Assembly: GCF_001719615.1 (NCBI RefSeq)
Contig: NZ_MDVX01000014.1
Location: forward strand, 1-64,000
Source: Neptunicoccus sediminis
Lineage (GTDB): Bacteria > Pseudomonadota > Alphaproteobacteria > Rhodobacterales > Rhodobacteraceae
Direction of reading: 5' to 3'
DNA: 64,000 nucleotides
The position numbers and the translations under genes are program-made. The notes beneath the pieces were generated by a model. That model was not told the DNA's origin and ran no database searches. It saw nothing but the letters and a program-made list of their open reading frames with translations. Of the stretch, positions 3,201 through 9,118 are shown in pieces; positions within the stretch are counted from its first letter, which is position 1, and each line of letters opens with the position of its first letter.

Positions 3201-3443
3201 GGTATGGAGAATCTGGTGTCGAAGTTCGGCCCGGATTTTCGGATTTGGGTGTATGGTGCGACCATCCGGGACAGAGGCACCGGGAGCACCAAAGTGCGGG
3301 CAGGCCGATCTATACGATGAGCCGAGAGCTCGAGTTAGTAGCTGGCCGCCTCTGCGACTCGCCCGGTTGCGCCGAGAGCGCGAATCCGTAGTTGTCGTGT
3401 CGCCCGCCGCTCCCGCTTTTTGTCACTGGCAAGGGAGGCGCAC
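3201..3443 (+). other. 5' non-coding end of an IS110 element (candidate bridge-RNA region)
   Basis: About 240 bases without a convincing gene separate the IS256 breakpoint from the IS110 transposase start. In IS110-group elements the left non-coding end is known to encode a structured bridge RNA that specifies target and donor DNA. I infer the same role here from position alone and have not folded the sequence. The downstream transposase is broken, so the RNA may be a relic. Confidence 0.3.
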
Positions 3444-4650
3444 ATGCGACGCGCAATCGGAATCGACATCCACCGCACCTTTGGGGAGGTAGTGATCTGG
3501 GAGAACGGTTTAACGAGGCACGAGGGACGGGTCGACATGACCCGCACGGCCCTGGAGGGGTTTGGTAGACAGCTTCTGAAGACAGACGAGGTTGTGATCG
3601 AGGCGACCGGGAACTGCATGGCGGTGTCGCGCGTCCTGACGCCCCTTGTGAAGCGGGTGGTGATCGCCAATCCGCTTCAAGTGAAGGCTATCGCCCACGC
3701 GCATGTGAAGACCGATAAGGTCGACGCAGCAACGTTGGCGAGTCTACATGCGGCTGGTTACCTGCCGGAGATCTGGACCCCGGATGCGGCGACGGAGCGG
3801 ATGCGTAGGCTCGTTGCGCGCCGCTATCAGGTTGTCCGGCATCGAACCCGGATTAAGAACGAGTTGCATGCCATCCTGCATGCGCATCTGATCCCGAAAT
3901 GCCCGCATGCCGATCTTTTCAACAAGCGTGGCCGCGATTGGCTGACCCGCCAACCGGTGCCGGAGGACGAGCGAGCCGCCATCGTGCGCCATATCCGAGA
4001 ACTGGACCGTCTTGGGGAAGATCTTGCCATGCTCGACGGTGATATCGCTCAAGGTGCCCTGGAAGATGAACCGATCCGGCGGCTGCTTACCATCACCGGG
4101 GTTAATCTGACAGTGGCGGCCGGGCTGATGGCGGCGATCGGCAGCATCGACCGGTTTGGATATCCGCAGAAACTGGTGAGCTACTTCGGGCTAAACCCAC
4201 GGGTGCGCTAATCCGGCCTCGGGCTAGCCTATCATGGCCGGATCAGCAAGGCCGGCCGCAGCCACGCCCGCGCAATGCTGGTCGAGGCGGCTTGGGCAGC
4301 GGCGAAAGCGCCAGGTCCGCTGCGGGGGTTCTTCATCCGTATCCGTGCGCGCCGTGGCCATCAGATCGCCGTCGTTGCGGTGGCACGCAAGCTTACTACG
4401 TTGTGCTGGCATATGCTGACCAAGCAGGAAGATTACCGTTGGGCTCGGCCCAGTCTTGTAGCCCATAAAATCCGGTCCATGGAGTTGGCTGCCGGAGTGC
4501 CGCCGAAGAAAGGTAACAAGCGTGGTGCCAGCTACGCCTATCACATCAAGGAGTTGCGAGATCAGGAAGTGCAGATCGCGGAACGGGCAGGGAAAAGCTA
4601 TGAGCACTTTGTTGCAGCTTGGCGAACGTATCCCCCGAAACGACACGGGT
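3444..4650 (+). pseudogene. IS110-family transposase broken by an in-frame TAA
   Basis: GGGAGG precedes the ATG at 3444. The product starts MRRAIGIDIHRTFGE and shows the DEDD-type residues expected of IS110 (IGID, EATGN and KTDKVDA), then a YFGLNPRVR block. A TAA at 4209-4211 interrupts it, and the same frame continues SGLGLAYHGRISKAGRSHAR to YEHFVAAW near 4610. Relatives usually read NPRVRQSG here, so the stop is most simply a CAA-to-TAA change. The true end is unclear, because the frame runs on into foreign sequence. The element sits inside an IS256 copy. Confidence 0.85.
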
Positions 4651-5101
4651 GTGCGGCCGCCTCAAGCCAGCAGGGACTAAATAGGCTGCCCGGTGACGCT
4701 TCCAGCCGACGCGCCACGCTTCGCCACGAGGTCGACCACACAAGAAAAGATTAGCAGAAATCAGAAGAAAAGTCTTGTCGATCACATCCGTCGTATAGAT
4801 GATTTTGCGCACTGCTGGTGGGAAGGCGAAGAACGGGATGACTTCTTGCCACGCGCGTCGCCAGCTTGGAGCGATTGACGAGTACTTTTGGCCCCATTCG
4901 GCCTCAAAATCAGTAAGGGCTTTCTCCGCCTCGGTGTCATTCGTGGCCTGATAAATCCGCTTGAGGTCTTTTGCGACGTTCTTGCGATCTTTCCATCCGC
5001 AGAAGTTCAGGGAATGGCGCACGAGGTGGACAATGCAGGTTTGGACTGTGGTCTCAGGGAATGCGGCATTGATGGCATCTGGAAAGCCCTTGAGGCCGTC
5101 C

Positions 5102-5142
5102 ATTGCCCAGCAGGCGATTGCAAAGCAATCTGCCGAGAGGGG
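5102..5142 (+). repeat. 41-nt hairpin element, copy 1
   Basis: It begins ATTGCCC and ends CGAGAGGGG. The core is GGC-GATTGC-AAA-GCAATC-T-GCC, a stem-loop with a single bulged T on the 3' side. It interrupts the IS256 transposase between codons for V and D, and excision restores the frame exactly with no target duplication. Two related copies lie at 5317-5357 and 7535-7577. Confidence 0.75.
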
Positions 5143-5316
5143 ACAACGGCGATCAGGATGTCTTCGACGCCGCGATCGCGCAGGTTGTTCATCACCGAGA
5201 GCCAGAACTTGGCCCCTTCGTTGTTGGCAATCCACAGGCCGAGAACCTCGCGTTCGCCCTCGGCGTTGACGCCCAGGGCTACGTAAACGGCTTTGTTCTT
5301 GACCTGACGGCTTTCC

Positions 5317-5357
5317 ATTGCCCGACAGGGTATTGCGCAGCAATGTCCCGAGAGGGG
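5317..5357 (+). repeat. 41-nt hairpin element, copy 2
   Basis: It has the same length and ends as copy 1 (ATTGCCC at the start, CGAGAGGGG at the end). The core is GGG-TATTGC-GCA-GCAATG-T-CCC. The lower stem changed from GGC/GCC to GGG/CCC with pairing kept. It is inserted in the same IS256 gene after the IRDA codons and shifts the frame. TCC precedes the insert in both copies. Confidence 0.75.
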
Positions 5358-5455
5358 GCATCGCGGATTTTGACCCGAAGAGCATCAAGAAAAACAATGG
5401 GATACATCGGCTCCAGAGCCCGGTTCTGCCAGTCTGATACTTCCTCCATCCCAAA

Positions 5456-5795
5456 ATAGGGAATTTACAGGAAGTGTCCCGAGAGTCCGTACATATCTAC
5501 ACCTTCGGCCATACGAGAAGGATGCGACAGAACCTTCATGACAAGCCAAGAACGCGGCATTCAGTTAAACGCTTGGACTTGAAAAGTAATTTTGCATCTG
5601 ATAGCAGGGCACATATTTCTCAGGGCCTACAATCTACTTTGAAATGTCTTCAGATAAGTTGGATATCAATCTTCTAGAGTAGCGGACGGTAGTTTATAGT
5701 TTCCCATGATATAGCAGCAACTTTGGCGTATTTCCATGAGCCAATAATAGCTTTAAAAACCCTTTCGAATATGAAGACGACAATGGGACAAGTCT
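5456..5795. other. Gene-poor spacer upstream of the sulfotransferase-like gene
   Basis: About 340 bases, lower in GC than the surrounding cargo. I see no gene, repeat or recognisable insertion-sequence end here, beyond GTCCCGAGAG near 5477 that resembles the 3' tail of the hairpin elements. The promoter of the gene at 5796 must lie here, but I cannot single out its boxes. Confidence 0.4.
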
Positions 5796-6995
5796 ATGAG
5801 TAACGCGTTTCAAAACAAGGTTGAAAAGGCACGCAATTGCATGCGAACTAATAAATGGCATGCTGCATGCGACCTGTGGGACCAAATCCGATATGAGAAT
5901 CCGTTGCATAGAGGGGCTTATATCGAGGGTATCAATGCTCTGATCCGTGCCTACCGTCACGACGAAATTGATGCCCTAGCCCTACAAGCTCGTGAGATGG
6001 TAGGTGATTACTTCCAGGTGCAGTTTTTTTTGGCTGGACTTGCCTGTCGAAGAGGGCAATGGACCACTTCAGTTAAGGAGTTTGAAGCATTGATCGGAAA
6101 ATTTCCTTCACGGAAGTCCGAGGTAATGAACTCGACCACTTACCGTCAAGCGGTCCTCAACTCAGTGGGAATTATTGCGGGTAACCGCAAACTCGCTCCC
6201 TTATCTCATGCTGAGTTTATGAAATATGACGGCAATAATACTTCCCCTTCTTCTTATGAACTTGAATATGTCTTTGTTTCCGGCATGCCACGGGCCGGAA
6301 CTACTGCACTTGGCCATCTTTTGAACATGTCTCCCGACATAGCCTTATTTACGGAAATACATATTCCATACTTGAACTATAAGCCGAGTTCATTCTCTCA
6401 AGAGATTCTAGAAAAACGTGCTGTACGGCTACCGGCTGGAGCGCCGCCAAAGATAGTTAAAAAATTGAGCCAAGCAAAGCTTATAGGCGATAAACGTCCG
6501 TTGTTCCATTACATGTTGCCACAAACACTACAGGCAATGCGCGAACACAGGGTTACCGTGTTTCAAATTCTACGTTCAGTCCTTAATGTTGCAGTCTCGT
6601 ACCAAAATCGTGCTAATAGTCCTGAGGACCAATGGGATCCCTTACGCAATCTAAATAATGCCATAGATGAATTTAATGTGATGCATAGATTCATTCTAGA
6701 ATGGGAATCACAGGGTGAAATGCAACCGCACCATAAGATATTCTATATTGACTACAGCAAGGTTTTCACGGAAATGAATTGCGCGACGGGACTGTTTGAC
6801 TGTCTTGGTCAGACTGTGGATGAAAACCTCAAACACAGAATAGCCCAGTACATTCAGCATTCAAATAGTATTATGGCCAAAGAACGCAGGGTGGAACCTG
6901 AAGTTCTTGCTCAGATTCGGGATCGAATTGATATGAATGCAGCTTGTGAAGTGGTCAAGCTGACCGGCATAGATGTTATTGATGGATTGAGCTGA
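5796..6995 (+). CDS. Sulfotransferase-family protein with an N-terminal repeat-like region
   Basis: A 399-residue protein. Residues 162-170 read SGMPRAGTT, a match to the 5'-phosphosulfate (PAPS) binding loop of sulfotransferases. ILRSVLNVAVSYQNR near 255-270 fits the 3'-phosphate-binding region. The first 130 residues look helical and TPR-like (paired short helices, for example around ARNCMRTNKWHAACDLW). Such proteins transfer sulfate from PAPS to glycans or other acceptors. The gene is visibly AT-richer than the rest of the window and sits alone between transposase remnants, so separate acquisition is likely. The acceptor is unknown. Confidence 0.75.
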   Translation: MSNAFQNKVEKARNCMRTNKWHAACDLWDQIRYENPLHRGAYIEGINALIRAYRHDEIDALALQAREMVGDYFQVQFFLAGLACRRGQWTTSVKEFEALIGKFPSRKSEVMNSTTYRQAVLNSVGIIAGNRKLAPLSHAEFMKYDGNNTSPSSYELEYVFVSGMPRAGTTALGHLLNMSPDIALFTEIHIPYLNYKPSSFSQEILEKRAVRLPAGAPPKIVKKLSQAKLIGDKRPLFHYMLPQTLQAMREHRVTVFQILRSVLNVAVSYQNRANSPEDQWDPLRNLNNAIDEFNVMHRFILEWESQGEMQPHHKIFYIDYSKVFTEMNCATGLFDCLGQTVDENLKHRIAQYIQHSNSIMAKERRVEPEVLAQIRDRIDMNAACEVVKLTGIDVIDGLS

Positions 6996-7120
6996 ATTAG
7001 TCTCGATGTGATCTGACACCGCCCCCTTCCCAGCAAGCCGGAAAGCCATGCGGCACCACCCCATCGAACGGTCGATCAGTGTTTGAGTCAAACCATCCGA
7101 GAACTGGTTCTTATCATATG

Positions 7121-7727
7121 ACTATCTGTATTCATGATCTTCGGTGGGCCATGTTTGGCGATGGCTTCGTTCAAAGCATCGACGCAGAAGTCGGCATGCA
7201 TCGTATTCGATAGTCGCCAACTCAGGACTTTGCGTGACGCCTAATCCGTGATTGCCACGAGGTACAGGAACCCGTTCTTGACCGGCACGAACGTGATATC
7301 GGCGCACCAGACTTGATTGGGGCGGTCGATCTGCATCTTCCTCAGCAAGTACGGATAGACGGGATGATGTGGGTGCGGCTGACTGGTTCTGGGCCGTTTG
7401 TAGATCGCCTCCAAGCCCATCCTGGCCATCAACCGCCTGACGCGATGACGTCCGACAACTGTGCCTTCTCTTCGCAGATAGGCCGCGATCTGGCGCGACC
7501 CGAAGAACGGATACTTGGTAAAGACCCGGTCAATTATTACCTGACAGTGCATTCGCAAAGCGAATGTCACGAGAGGGCTCTTTCATCATGGCCAGCGTAT
7601 CTGAACCGATGCCAACCGGCGTGTAGTAGAACGCCGACCGCGACAGCTGCACCAGTTTGCATTGCTGGCTGATGCTCAGCTCAGGGTGATCGCGTTTGAT
7701 CATGGCTCGCTTCTTTGCCGGGCTCAC
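7121..7727 (-). pseudogene. IS3-family OrfB, disrupted and truncated
   Basis: The frame starts MSPAKKRAMIKRDHPELSIS, overlapping the end of OrfA as usual for IS3 elements. It is broken after LAMMKE by the hairpin element at 7535-7577. It resumes IDRVFTKYPFFGSRQIAAYL and runs to FLYLVAITD, where TAG replaces what is normally a Trp codon, then VLSWRLSNTM continues. Homology ends after KIMNTD near 7121, so the end of the DDE domain is gone. Three independent lesions mean no active transposase is made. Confidence 0.85.
7535..7577 (+). repeat. 42-43-nt hairpin element, copy 3
   Basis: This copy is related to those at 5102 and 5317. It starts ATTACCTGACAG (from 7536) and ends CACGAGAGGG. The core is GTG-CATTCGC-AAA-GCGAATG-T-CAC, with one extra pair in the upper stem and the lower stem changed to GTG/CAC, again keeping pairing and the bulged T. 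It lies in IS3 OrfB between the codons of MMKE and IDRV and introduces a stop. Confidence 0.7.
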
Positions 7728-7999
7728 TTTTTGAGCCCTTCCGACAAAAAATCATTCTCGACCGCCAACCTCCCGATCTTGGCGTGCAGTTCCTTGACCT
7801 CTGCTTCAGTTGGGCCGCTTTGCTTCCCCCCAGAGAACACATCGGCCTTCCCGTCGATGGCCTGCCGTTTCCATGTGCTGACCTGGTTTGGGTGCAACTG
7901 ATGCTTCGCTGCGATCTCCTGCACAGTCTTGTCACCGCGCAACGCTTCCAACGCCACCTTGGCCTTAAACTGATCTGTAAAATTCCGGCGCTTTGCCAT
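7724..7999 (-). CDS. IS3-family OrfA
   Basis: An apparently intact 91-residue OrfA starting MAKRRNFTDQFKAKVALEAL, with the helix-turn-helix EIAAKHQLHPNQVSTWKRQA and a C-terminal leucine-zipper-like stretch (LHAKIGRLAVENDFL). It is the DNA-binding half of an IS3 transposase and would normally be fused to OrfB by programmed frameshifting. Its OrfB partner is dead. The element's terminal repeat, ending TTCTGGGACCACTTC, lies near 8040-8066. Confidence 0.85.
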   Translation of the reverse strand: MAKRRNFTDQFKAKVALEALRGDKTVQEIAAKHQLHPNQVSTWKRQAIDGKADVFSGGKQSGPTEAEVKELHAKIGRLAVENDFLSEGLKK

Positions 8000-8068
8000 T
8001 CTCGTATCCCTTCAAAGGTTTGGGATACACCTTAACCGACTGCCCAGTTTTCTGGGACCACTTCAAAG

Positions 8069-8205
8069 CTTGGCAACGTGTCAAAAGCCTGCCAGGTGAT
8101 GGGCATGTCACGCGATACGTTCTACCGCTACAAATCGGCGGTTGAGGGCGGTGCTGTCGAGGCGTTGTTTGAACGCAGCCGACGCAAACCCAATCGTAAG
8201 ACCGC
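8069..8205 (+). pseudogene. N-terminal remnant of an IS481-like transposase
   Basis: The plus frame reads LGNVSKACQVMGMSRDTFYR, then YKSAVEGGAVEALFERSRRK. This is the helix-turn-helix and linker of IS481-type transposases. It has no start codon of its own and loses similarity near 8205, with a stop at 8234-8236. It is wedged between the end of the IS3 remnant and the start of the second IS110 remnant. Confidence 0.65.
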
Positions 8206-8298
8206 ATGTCTTTTGTGCGCCGGTTTGATGTTGTGAGGATTTAAGCTGGCTCTGAGAGGGCTGCTTATCCTGCTGCCCTTCATTTTTGGAGGTACGAC

Positions 8299-9118
8299 AT
8301 GAAGGACAAATCAAAAGTAGTTTTTGTTGGGCTCGACGTGGCAAAGGACACGCTGGCAGTTTCTGTTGCGGATGCAGGCCGGGACGGTGAGATACGCGAT
8401 TGGGGGACAGTTTCCACTACACCTCAATCAGTTGAAAGGTTGCTCAAAAAGCTGGCGGCGCGATTTAATAAGGTTGAGGTCTGCTATGAAGCGGGGCCAA
8501 CGGGGTATGGGCTGCATCGACATATTACGGCGTTTGGGTTTTCCTGTAGCGTTGTGGCCCCGTCCTTAATCCCTATACGGGCCGGAGAGCGGATCAAAAC
8601 GGACAGGCGGGATGCGATGCGCCTTACGCGCCTTCTAAGGGCGAGCCCGATCTAGGTGCCCGATGAAATCCATGAAGCGATGCGGGATTTGGTGCGGGCC
8701 CGCGAGAGTGCTGCTGAAGATCAGCGCCACAAGAGACAATTGATCTCTGCTTTTCTTCTGCGTCACGGGCGGATTTATCATCGCACCAAAACCTGGACGA
8801 TGCGCTATCGCCGCTGGCTGCAACGGCAGTCCTTTGACCACCCTGCGCAACAGGTTGCGTTGCAAGAGATGGTTCTGGCTGAGCGCCATGCCGTGGAGCG
8901 GGTCGCGCGGCTGACAACTGGGATCAAGGAGTTGGTGACAGATTGGCAATTGGGGCCGGTTGTTGAGGCATTACAAGCCCTGCGCGGTGTTGCCTTGATT
9001 AGTGCCGTGACATTCATGGCTGAGATCGGCGATGTTTGCCGGTTTGAGGACTCTCGCAAATTGATGGCTGATCTGGGCTTGGTGCCAAGCGAGTATTCCA
9101 CGGGTCAGACGGTAATCC
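8299..9118 (+). pseudogene. Second IS110-family transposase, broken by an in-frame TAG
   Basis: GGAGGT precedes the ATG at 8299. The product starts MKDKSKVVFVGLDVAKDTLA and shows CYEAGPTGYGL and KTDRRDAMRL, the DEDD pattern of IS110 enzymes. A TAG at 8653-8655 stops it after RASPI, and the same frame goes on VPDEIHEAMRDLVRARESAA to SEYSTGQT. Relatives usually have W before VPDE, so TGG to TAG is likely. The C-terminal end is replaced by IS30-like sequence from about 9140. It is distinct in sequence from the IS110 copy at 3444. Confidence 0.85.

Follow-up and report, generated by a model that had tools for sequence, protein, structure and literature searches.

Insertion sequences (ISs) of the IS200/IS605 family insert 3' of a tetranucleotide and generate no target duplication. 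In one account, the hairpin of IS608 carries an unpaired T (T17) that is contacted by the transposase, and a bulge is required in the repetitive extragenic palindromic (REP) elements of E. coli (PMC8266576). GTAG REPs and REPINs (REP doublets forming hairpins) are presented in several papers as short imperfect hairpins with conserved irregularities which are probably non-autonomous and moved as single strands (PMC8266576, PMC6006769, PMC3116915). The CGTC REPs (dRS3, RPE-4 and RPE-6) occur mostly in alpha-Proteobacteria and have CGTC or TGTC next to the hairpin, and the 2013 survey describing them reports, in its treatment of these elements, that no dedicated transposase was found (PMC3733652). 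The same survey describes Rickettsia palindromic elements as in-frame palindromes in genes for likely functional proteins (PMC3733652), while small mobile hairpins are reported from organelles in the form of repetitive hairpin elements and yeast mitochondrial mobile DNA (PMC2800124, PMC4478555). The present analysis concerns three hairpins of about 41 nucleotides (nt) in a 64,000-nt stretch of Neptunicoccus sediminis DNA (contig NZ_MDVX01000014.1, positions 1 to 64,000; hereafter the window), where they interrupt transposase genes of two IS families. The hairpins are members of a large and widespread Rhodobacterales family of ~41-nt hairpins, and this family works like a REP-type mobile hairpin.

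Two covariance models were used, R1 built from the three window copies and R2, an improved model with copies 1 and 2 in its training set. The copies and their hosts are as follows.

5101..5141, plus strand: hairpin copy 1, 41 nt, inside an IS256-type transposase gene (minus strand); clean insert relative to the empty relatives L037, L038 and L041; 63.4 bits with R2 (a training copy)
5316..5356, plus strand: hairpin copy 2, 41 nt, inside the same IS256-type gene as copy 1; clean insert relative to the empty relatives L037 and L041; 64.3 bits with R2 (a training copy)
7535..7577, plus strand: hairpin copy 3, 43 nt, inside an IS3-type transposase gene (minus strand); clean insert relative to L039 and L040; E 1.4e-4 with R2 (copy outside the training set)
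4700..5480 (approximate), minus strand: broken IS256-type transposase, host of copies 1 and 2; PF00872 in two frames; plasmid relatives have an annotated IS256 transposase
7100..8030 (approximate), minus strand: broken IS3-type transposase, host of copy 3; HTH_21 and rve; 79-83% identity to its best IS3 relatives across 96-100% of the query

The empty IS256 relatives used for copies 1 and 2 are Pseudosulfitobacter and Paracoccus plasmids, and the empty IS3 relatives used for copy 3 are two Sulfitobacter plasmids. A Sulfitobacter plasmid (L038) has a different hairpin at the site of copy 2 and no hairpin at the site of copy 1. Alignment with the empty relatives revealed no target duplication at any of window sites 1-3, in agreement with the first-pass annotation of this DNA, and it places copies 1 and 2 one position away from where that annotation had put them, the coordinates of the third (7535-7577) being correct. 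The same annotation had taken the hosts to be dead transposases of IS256 and IS3 type, an assignment that the Pfam domains bear out (Transposase_mut for IS256, HTH_21/rve for IS3). It had also described three copies on one strand in which pairing is kept while bases change, and this too holds: the lower-stem pairs are GGC/GCC, GGG/CCC and GTG/CAC in copies 1, 2 and 3, respectively, and each copy has one bulged T. The stem of copy 2 includes one T-G pairing. When each copy was folded alone as DNA and compared with shuffles, copies 1 and 3 gave z scores of -2.3 and -4.2; copy 2 was weak (z -1.4), and its minimum-energy fold differs from the shared hairpin. Copy 3 was not used in training R2 and is nevertheless matched at the E value given above, and its likeness to the family is therefore not due to chance.

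The hairpin has fixed ends and a stem that varies by compensating changes. The consensus is C-RY-TGCCC-GRCA-GG-(variable hairpin, often with one bulged T)-CC-GAGA-GGG, an architecture that consists of an outer CCC/GGG stem and a GRCA/GAGA internal loop. Lengths of 41 and 43 nt account for 75 and 22 of 128 copies, respectively, and are the classes expected if base pairs are added one by one. Among the 58 distinct 41-nt copies of alignment A7, 97.8% of cells are paired, versus 82.4% in shuffled and at most 50.4% in slid alignments, and the covariation score is 0.335, versus 0.080 shuffled and at most 0.049 slid. The search pattern fixes GRCAGG and CCGAGAGGG, hence their conservation in A7 is imposed and only the inner pairs were free to vary.

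In a first sample of 61 genomes, R1 matched 27, including that of N. sediminis itself (E <=0.1), and the 24 genomes of the sample from outside its bacterial family yielded two weak matches only (E 0.007 and 0.07). R2 matched 116 of 296 genomes of the bacterial family, drawn from 295 genera (E <=0.001); counts over these genomes are lower bounds since at most 22 candidates were scored per genome. Six rich genomes, for which more candidates were scored, have 18 to 37 matches each, 37 being the maximum in one genome. The covariance-model search of Rhodobacterales genomes that the first-pass annotation had suggested has thus returned many further copies, and the aligned intact relatives of the host ISs lack the insert. 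In the N. sediminis genome, the window's three copies are the sole R1 matches at E <4 (R1 being trained on them), and a fourth, shorter copy lies on contig C13 (L334, 29 bits). A pattern scan of named genome contigs with the stem left free returned at least 120 stretches, and most of the 80 titles listed are Rhodobacterales. The 132 matches taken from these stretches are the source of two sets of 128 copies. Counts at target positions -4 to +1 use the 128 matches that begin with C, including the chance hits L083 and L179, and counts of length, host, recurrence and orientation use another 128, from which L078, L079, L083 and L179 were left out as no hairpin is present there. In one locus (L116, ~240-335), two family hairpins judged by eye lie in tandem ~17 nt apart. 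Twelve IMG/VR contigs were matched; on inspection, the flanks of all 12 and the reading frames of three look like tailed-phage or host sequence, and single-stranded phages were rejected as a source. Four of the IMG/VR matches (L316, L321, L324 and L326) have no clear hairpin by eye, and a collection of phage records gave no match to window 5060-5400.

Insertion is precise and occurs 3' of a CRTC-like tetranucleotide, usually before G, without target duplication at the resolved sites. The bases that precede the 128 copies are C in 81 at position -4, A in 79 or G in 34 at -3, T in 93 at -2 and C in 102 at -1, and the base that follows (+1) is G in 101 of 127. CRTC precedes 54 of the 128 copies versus 1.2% of positions in the same loci, and CRTCG frames 47 of them versus 0.4% of positions. 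Since the empty relatives carry CRTC, it belongs to the target and not to the element. The ends of the element are confirmed by a filled and empty pair at 95% identity: L088 and a Leisingera plasmid that has an annotated IS3 transposase at this place are 95.4% identical and differ by exactly 41 nt at the insert point. Four Phaeobacter plasmid records, 93.4% identical to L088, show the same difference in span, and in the one that was aligned the 41 nt are missing. In one IS3 family, a single site (site A) is filled with three different stems (L091, L207 and the group of L246, L252 and L271) and is empty in L096, L244, L069 and L201, with L069 carrying a hairpin at another site. In a tree, the closest relative of L091 is L096 (support 0.99), and the pattern indicates that hairpins entered site A on more than one occasion or left it cleanly. 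No target duplication was found in any resolved pair (window sites 1-3, site A and L088). The comparison of filled and empty sites that the first-pass annotation had called for therefore yielded clean empty sites, and its view of the hairpin as a mobile-type palindromic element is upheld by these, by the many dispersed copies and by the kept pairing.

A minimal miniature inverted-repeat transposable element (MITE), moved by a double-strand DDE or IS110-type transposase of a resident IS family, would fit with hosts that are themselves IS elements, and IS110 needs no long duplication. The resolved sites are free of the target duplication expected of a DDE-transposon MITE, however, no terminal inverted repeat extends beyond the hairpin, and no separated pair of matching ends was recognised by eye in the loci, which together make this explanation unlikely.

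A second, unrelated hairpin with the core ACAGTCC-N3-GGACTGT within GAAAA..TTTTC was observed in L207 (at 1871, plus strand), where it cleanly interrupts an IS3 orfA as an additional insert, and it recurs in L147 (at 5905, plus strand). The IS elements here may be used by more than one hairpin family.

In Rhodobacterales the hairpins sit mostly in repeated mobile DNA, above all in IS transposase genes. The regions around the insertions recur in other loci for 107 of 128 copies, whereas three control draws of 122 gave 9, 2 and 4; the 107 include a few noncoding repeats or rRNA spacers. Longest-frame translations beside the 128 copies matched 25 Pfam families, mostly transposase, integrase-core or helix-turn-helix domains of ISs, whereas 80 families were matched by 121 control points from these loci; the 25 of them listed belong to ordinary genes, except for one rve family (1 member) and one of phage integrases (2 members). 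Frames picked by recurrence (106 scanned) gave the same picture, and both of these scans count families rather than copies. In a random sample of 30 of the 128 copies, for each of which one side and one frame were read, 15 adjoin a transposase-type Pfam domain. With a small transposase set that does not include IS5, 41 of 128 sites lie within or beside a match and 54 of 128 have a match within 600 nt. A ~1 kb stretch can hold two to four hairpins. A gene that by eye is similar to the toxin of bacterial toxin-antitoxin pairs carries the hairpin at one common position in three loci (L009, L010 and L318, one of them a phage contig).

Some copies lie elsewhere. A noncoding repeat (CGCGG..CGCGCATC/GCC) hosts the hairpin in L108, L110, L146, L151, L153 and L174, with one filled and one empty copy of the repeat in L108. 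Hairpins of the same design occur in the 16S-23S spacer beside tRNA genes in L076 and L095, and by eye a hairpin follows a groEL-like 3' end in L085. These few copies outside ISs, along with weaker relatives that appear by eye to be intergenic, would fit a Rhodobacterales hairpin with a cellular role, as a structured RNA or in RNA processing, that was copied secondarily into mobile DNA. Against such a role, most copies are in recurrent mobile sequence and in both orientations (among 88 spanning frames, 37 sense and 51 antisense, p 0.17), insertion at a fixed target is exact, and Rfam has no match in window 4000-9000. A cellular RNA is accordingly considered quite unlikely.

Excision of the hairpin in silico restores a conserved protein at many sites, and a hairpin-bearing IS can be multicopy. 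The genome of L093 has three copies of an IS3 bearing two hairpins, of which two are identical over 1279 nt and the third is nearly so; repeated spacings suggest that there are more such cases. Both observations would be accommodated if the hairpin were tolerated in a transposase gene through its removal from the mRNA or through translational skipping. Since both orientations occur, however, bypass or RNA removal is judged unlikely, and by eye the multicopy IS that was examined also has an in-frame stop and window site 1 lacks matching take-off and landing codons; the probability left to this explanation is very small. The in-frame stop is shared by the three IS3 copies in the L093 genome (by eye), and other full-length relatives of this IS are 78-80% identical to it, one 195-nt piece being 95% identical. 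As near-identical copies share the stop, a dead IS and the hairpins in it can have multiplied together, presumably in trans. Among 43 distinct sites from six genomes, identical cores made up 1 of 170 comparisons within a genome and 7 of 733 between genomes (p 0.82). Local amplification of one hairpin within a genome was therefore not seen, and the lack of within-genome likeness is better explained by hairpins that arrived on ISs than by hairpins copied inside the genome.

A search for the enzyme that might move the hairpin was centred on the HUH transposases, for which the link to the hairpin is weak. In the first sample of 61 genomes, no match to a Y1 transposase was found in N. sediminis, G034 or G017. 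Among the 296 genomes, Y1_Tnp is present in 20 of 116 positive and 14 of 180 negative genomes (p 0.015), Y2_Tnp (IS91-type) in 18 of 116 and 18 of 180 (p 0.20), and one or the other in 34 of 116 and 27 of 180 (p 0.005), with neither in 82 of the 116 positives; these association tests ignore the general load of mobile DNA. Y1_Tnp is missing in four of the six rich genomes, and G268, G115, G338, G068 and G034, which have 13-37 hairpin matches each, have no Y1 match. A hairpin match at E <0.01 was found at 3 of 53 Y1 loci (L290, L044 and L048). In L290, a strong hairpin lies upstream of the Y1 gene and a weak one (E 0.13) downstream, but L165 has a hairpin with flanks almost identical to those of the upstream one, and a search there revealed no related Y1 gene. 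By eye, the Y1 genes of L044 and L290 resemble ordinary IS200-type genes next to hairpin-carrying IS sequence and were rejected as mobilisers, and the Y1 fragment that adjoins the hairpin in L048 may be its host. Based on the weak association and on the four rich genomes that lack it, a Y1 transposase was rejected as the mobiliser (61 and 296 genomes searched). The IS91-type Y2 was also rejected: 18 of 36 Y2 genomes are positive, which is not significant, and the resolvable ends of its repeated copies are unlike the hairpin. Hairpins were found close to or within some repeated IS91-type copies.

The first-pass annotation had suggested single-strand movement by an HUH/REP-type enzyme and a linked gene for a TnpA-REP or REP-associated tyrosine transposase (RAYT). 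The first suggestion fits with insertion at CRTC without duplication and with the bulge in the hairpin; the specific TnpA-REP/RAYT link failed, as Y1_Tnp is absent from 96 of 116 positives, four of the six rich genomes among them, and the family has no GTAG. If the hairpins were REP elements that depend for movement on TnpA-REP (RAYT) or another Y1 enzyme, still resident or lost recently, one could account for the bulge, the tetranucleotide target and the lack of duplication, as well as for the weak Y1 excess in positives and the Y1 loci with a hairpin match, one of which has matches on both sides if the weak one is counted. Given the missing GTAG tag, the hairpin-rich genomes named above that have no Y1 match and the likeness of the Y1 genes in L044 and L290 to ordinary IS200 types, this version is very doubtful.

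The nearest described kinds are the GTAG and CGTC REPs, and the family lacks defining features of both and is filed as neither. It resembles GTAG REPs associated with RAYTs in being a short imperfect hairpin with conserved irregularities that is probably non-autonomous. It differs from them in that the consensus of 58 copies has no GTAG at the hairpin foot, in that Y1 genes are present in few of the positive genomes and the Y1 loci with repeat matches have IS-like surroundings, and in that REPs are mostly extragenic whereas this family is mostly inside mobile coding sequence. CRTC before the hairpin recalls the CGTC REPs but is part of the target, being present in empty sites, and alignment A7 shows neither an 8-9 bp stem starting with paired AT nor a CCA tail; the outer CCC/GGG stem and GRCA/GAGA internal loop are further differences. 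The family shares with IS200/IS605 elements the lack of duplication, insertion 3' of a fixed tetranucleotide and the unpaired T, but it has one hairpin only, no gene, no consistently linked TnpA among those found and no clear guide. Rickettsia palindromic elements are also palindromes inside genes; here, however, the 75 of 128 copies that are 41 nt long break the frame, only 8 of 128 have a length of 39 or 45 nt, and the hosts are mostly transposases or other mobile sequence. Mobile hairpins of organelles are alike in small size and mobility, belong to different genomes, and are likened here by description only. In agreement with the first-pass annotation, which did not recognise the hairpin as a described family, the open-licence papers searched contained no description of it, as was the case for Rfam over the region given above.

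Probably, then, the hairpin is a non-autonomous, REP-like mobile element of ~41 nt that is precisely inserted, joined as folded single-stranded DNA in trans and carried as a passenger of ISs. It would be recognised in its folded single-stranded form and joined to its target by a trans-acting enzyme that works like the HUH transposases. A single-strand mechanism is suggested by insertion at a tetranucleotide without duplication, by the conserved irregularity of the hairpin and by the parallels to IS608 and E. coli REPs. Spread would occur mainly as a passenger of IS elements, some of them already dead, and the hairpin-carrying ISs would be mobilised in trans and transferred between genera; the passenger role has some support from the L093 copies. 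A more specific proposal, that the hairpin is a dedicated 41-nt single-strand transposon which targets other transposons, is inserted by its enzyme at CRTC/G and is spread by the IS elements that it breaks, is tentative and has less than an even chance of being correct.

Several results weigh against the REP-like passenger reading. No enzyme was found, and no longer, gene-carrying version was recognised in 1.58 Mb of loci, in which far half-sites were judged by eye. Two of five covariation measures are barely above shuffles: pairs changed on both sides number 6 versus 4.7 in shuffles (58 of 500 shuffles reach 6), and further pair types number 11 versus 9.1 (29 of 500 reach 11). In the random sample of 30 copies, 14 hosts were without a match or doubtful and one copy lies beside an ordinary gene (ornithine cyclodeaminase, L104). 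Strand bias relative to local GC skew is weak, with 34 of 90 positive (sign test p 0.026, mean test p 0.15). No clear guide was found among 123 copies; the strongest links between element and target are modest, joining target position -4 with element positions 15 (z 4.7) and 10 (z 4.2), values that are uncorrected. Clean loss, and not just repeated gain, may lie behind the pattern at site A, and the 43 sites in six genomes do not show recent copying of the hairpin inside one genome.

Two further features of the window lie near the hairpins. Positions 3420-4754 encode an IS110-type transposase with one in-frame stop near 4209, the first part of which matches IS110 families while the second part was judged by eye. 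Between the two broken ISs, at 5796-6995, is a 399-amino-acid reading frame with an FVSGMPRAGTTALGHLL stretch, a motif by which we take it to resemble a sulfotransferase-type protein.

The family bears on the question of how gene-less hairpins such as the CGTC REPs move. The clean filled and empty pairs (up to 95% identity), sharp target, fixed ends and strong covariation of the present family mean that its enzyme can be sought by direct assay. The hairpins may be among the smallest mobile DNAs, and they seem to ride on other mobile DNA. Their concentration there suggests that tiny elements can use ISs as vehicles while disabling them, and the IS as both vehicle and victim bears on the decay of IS families.

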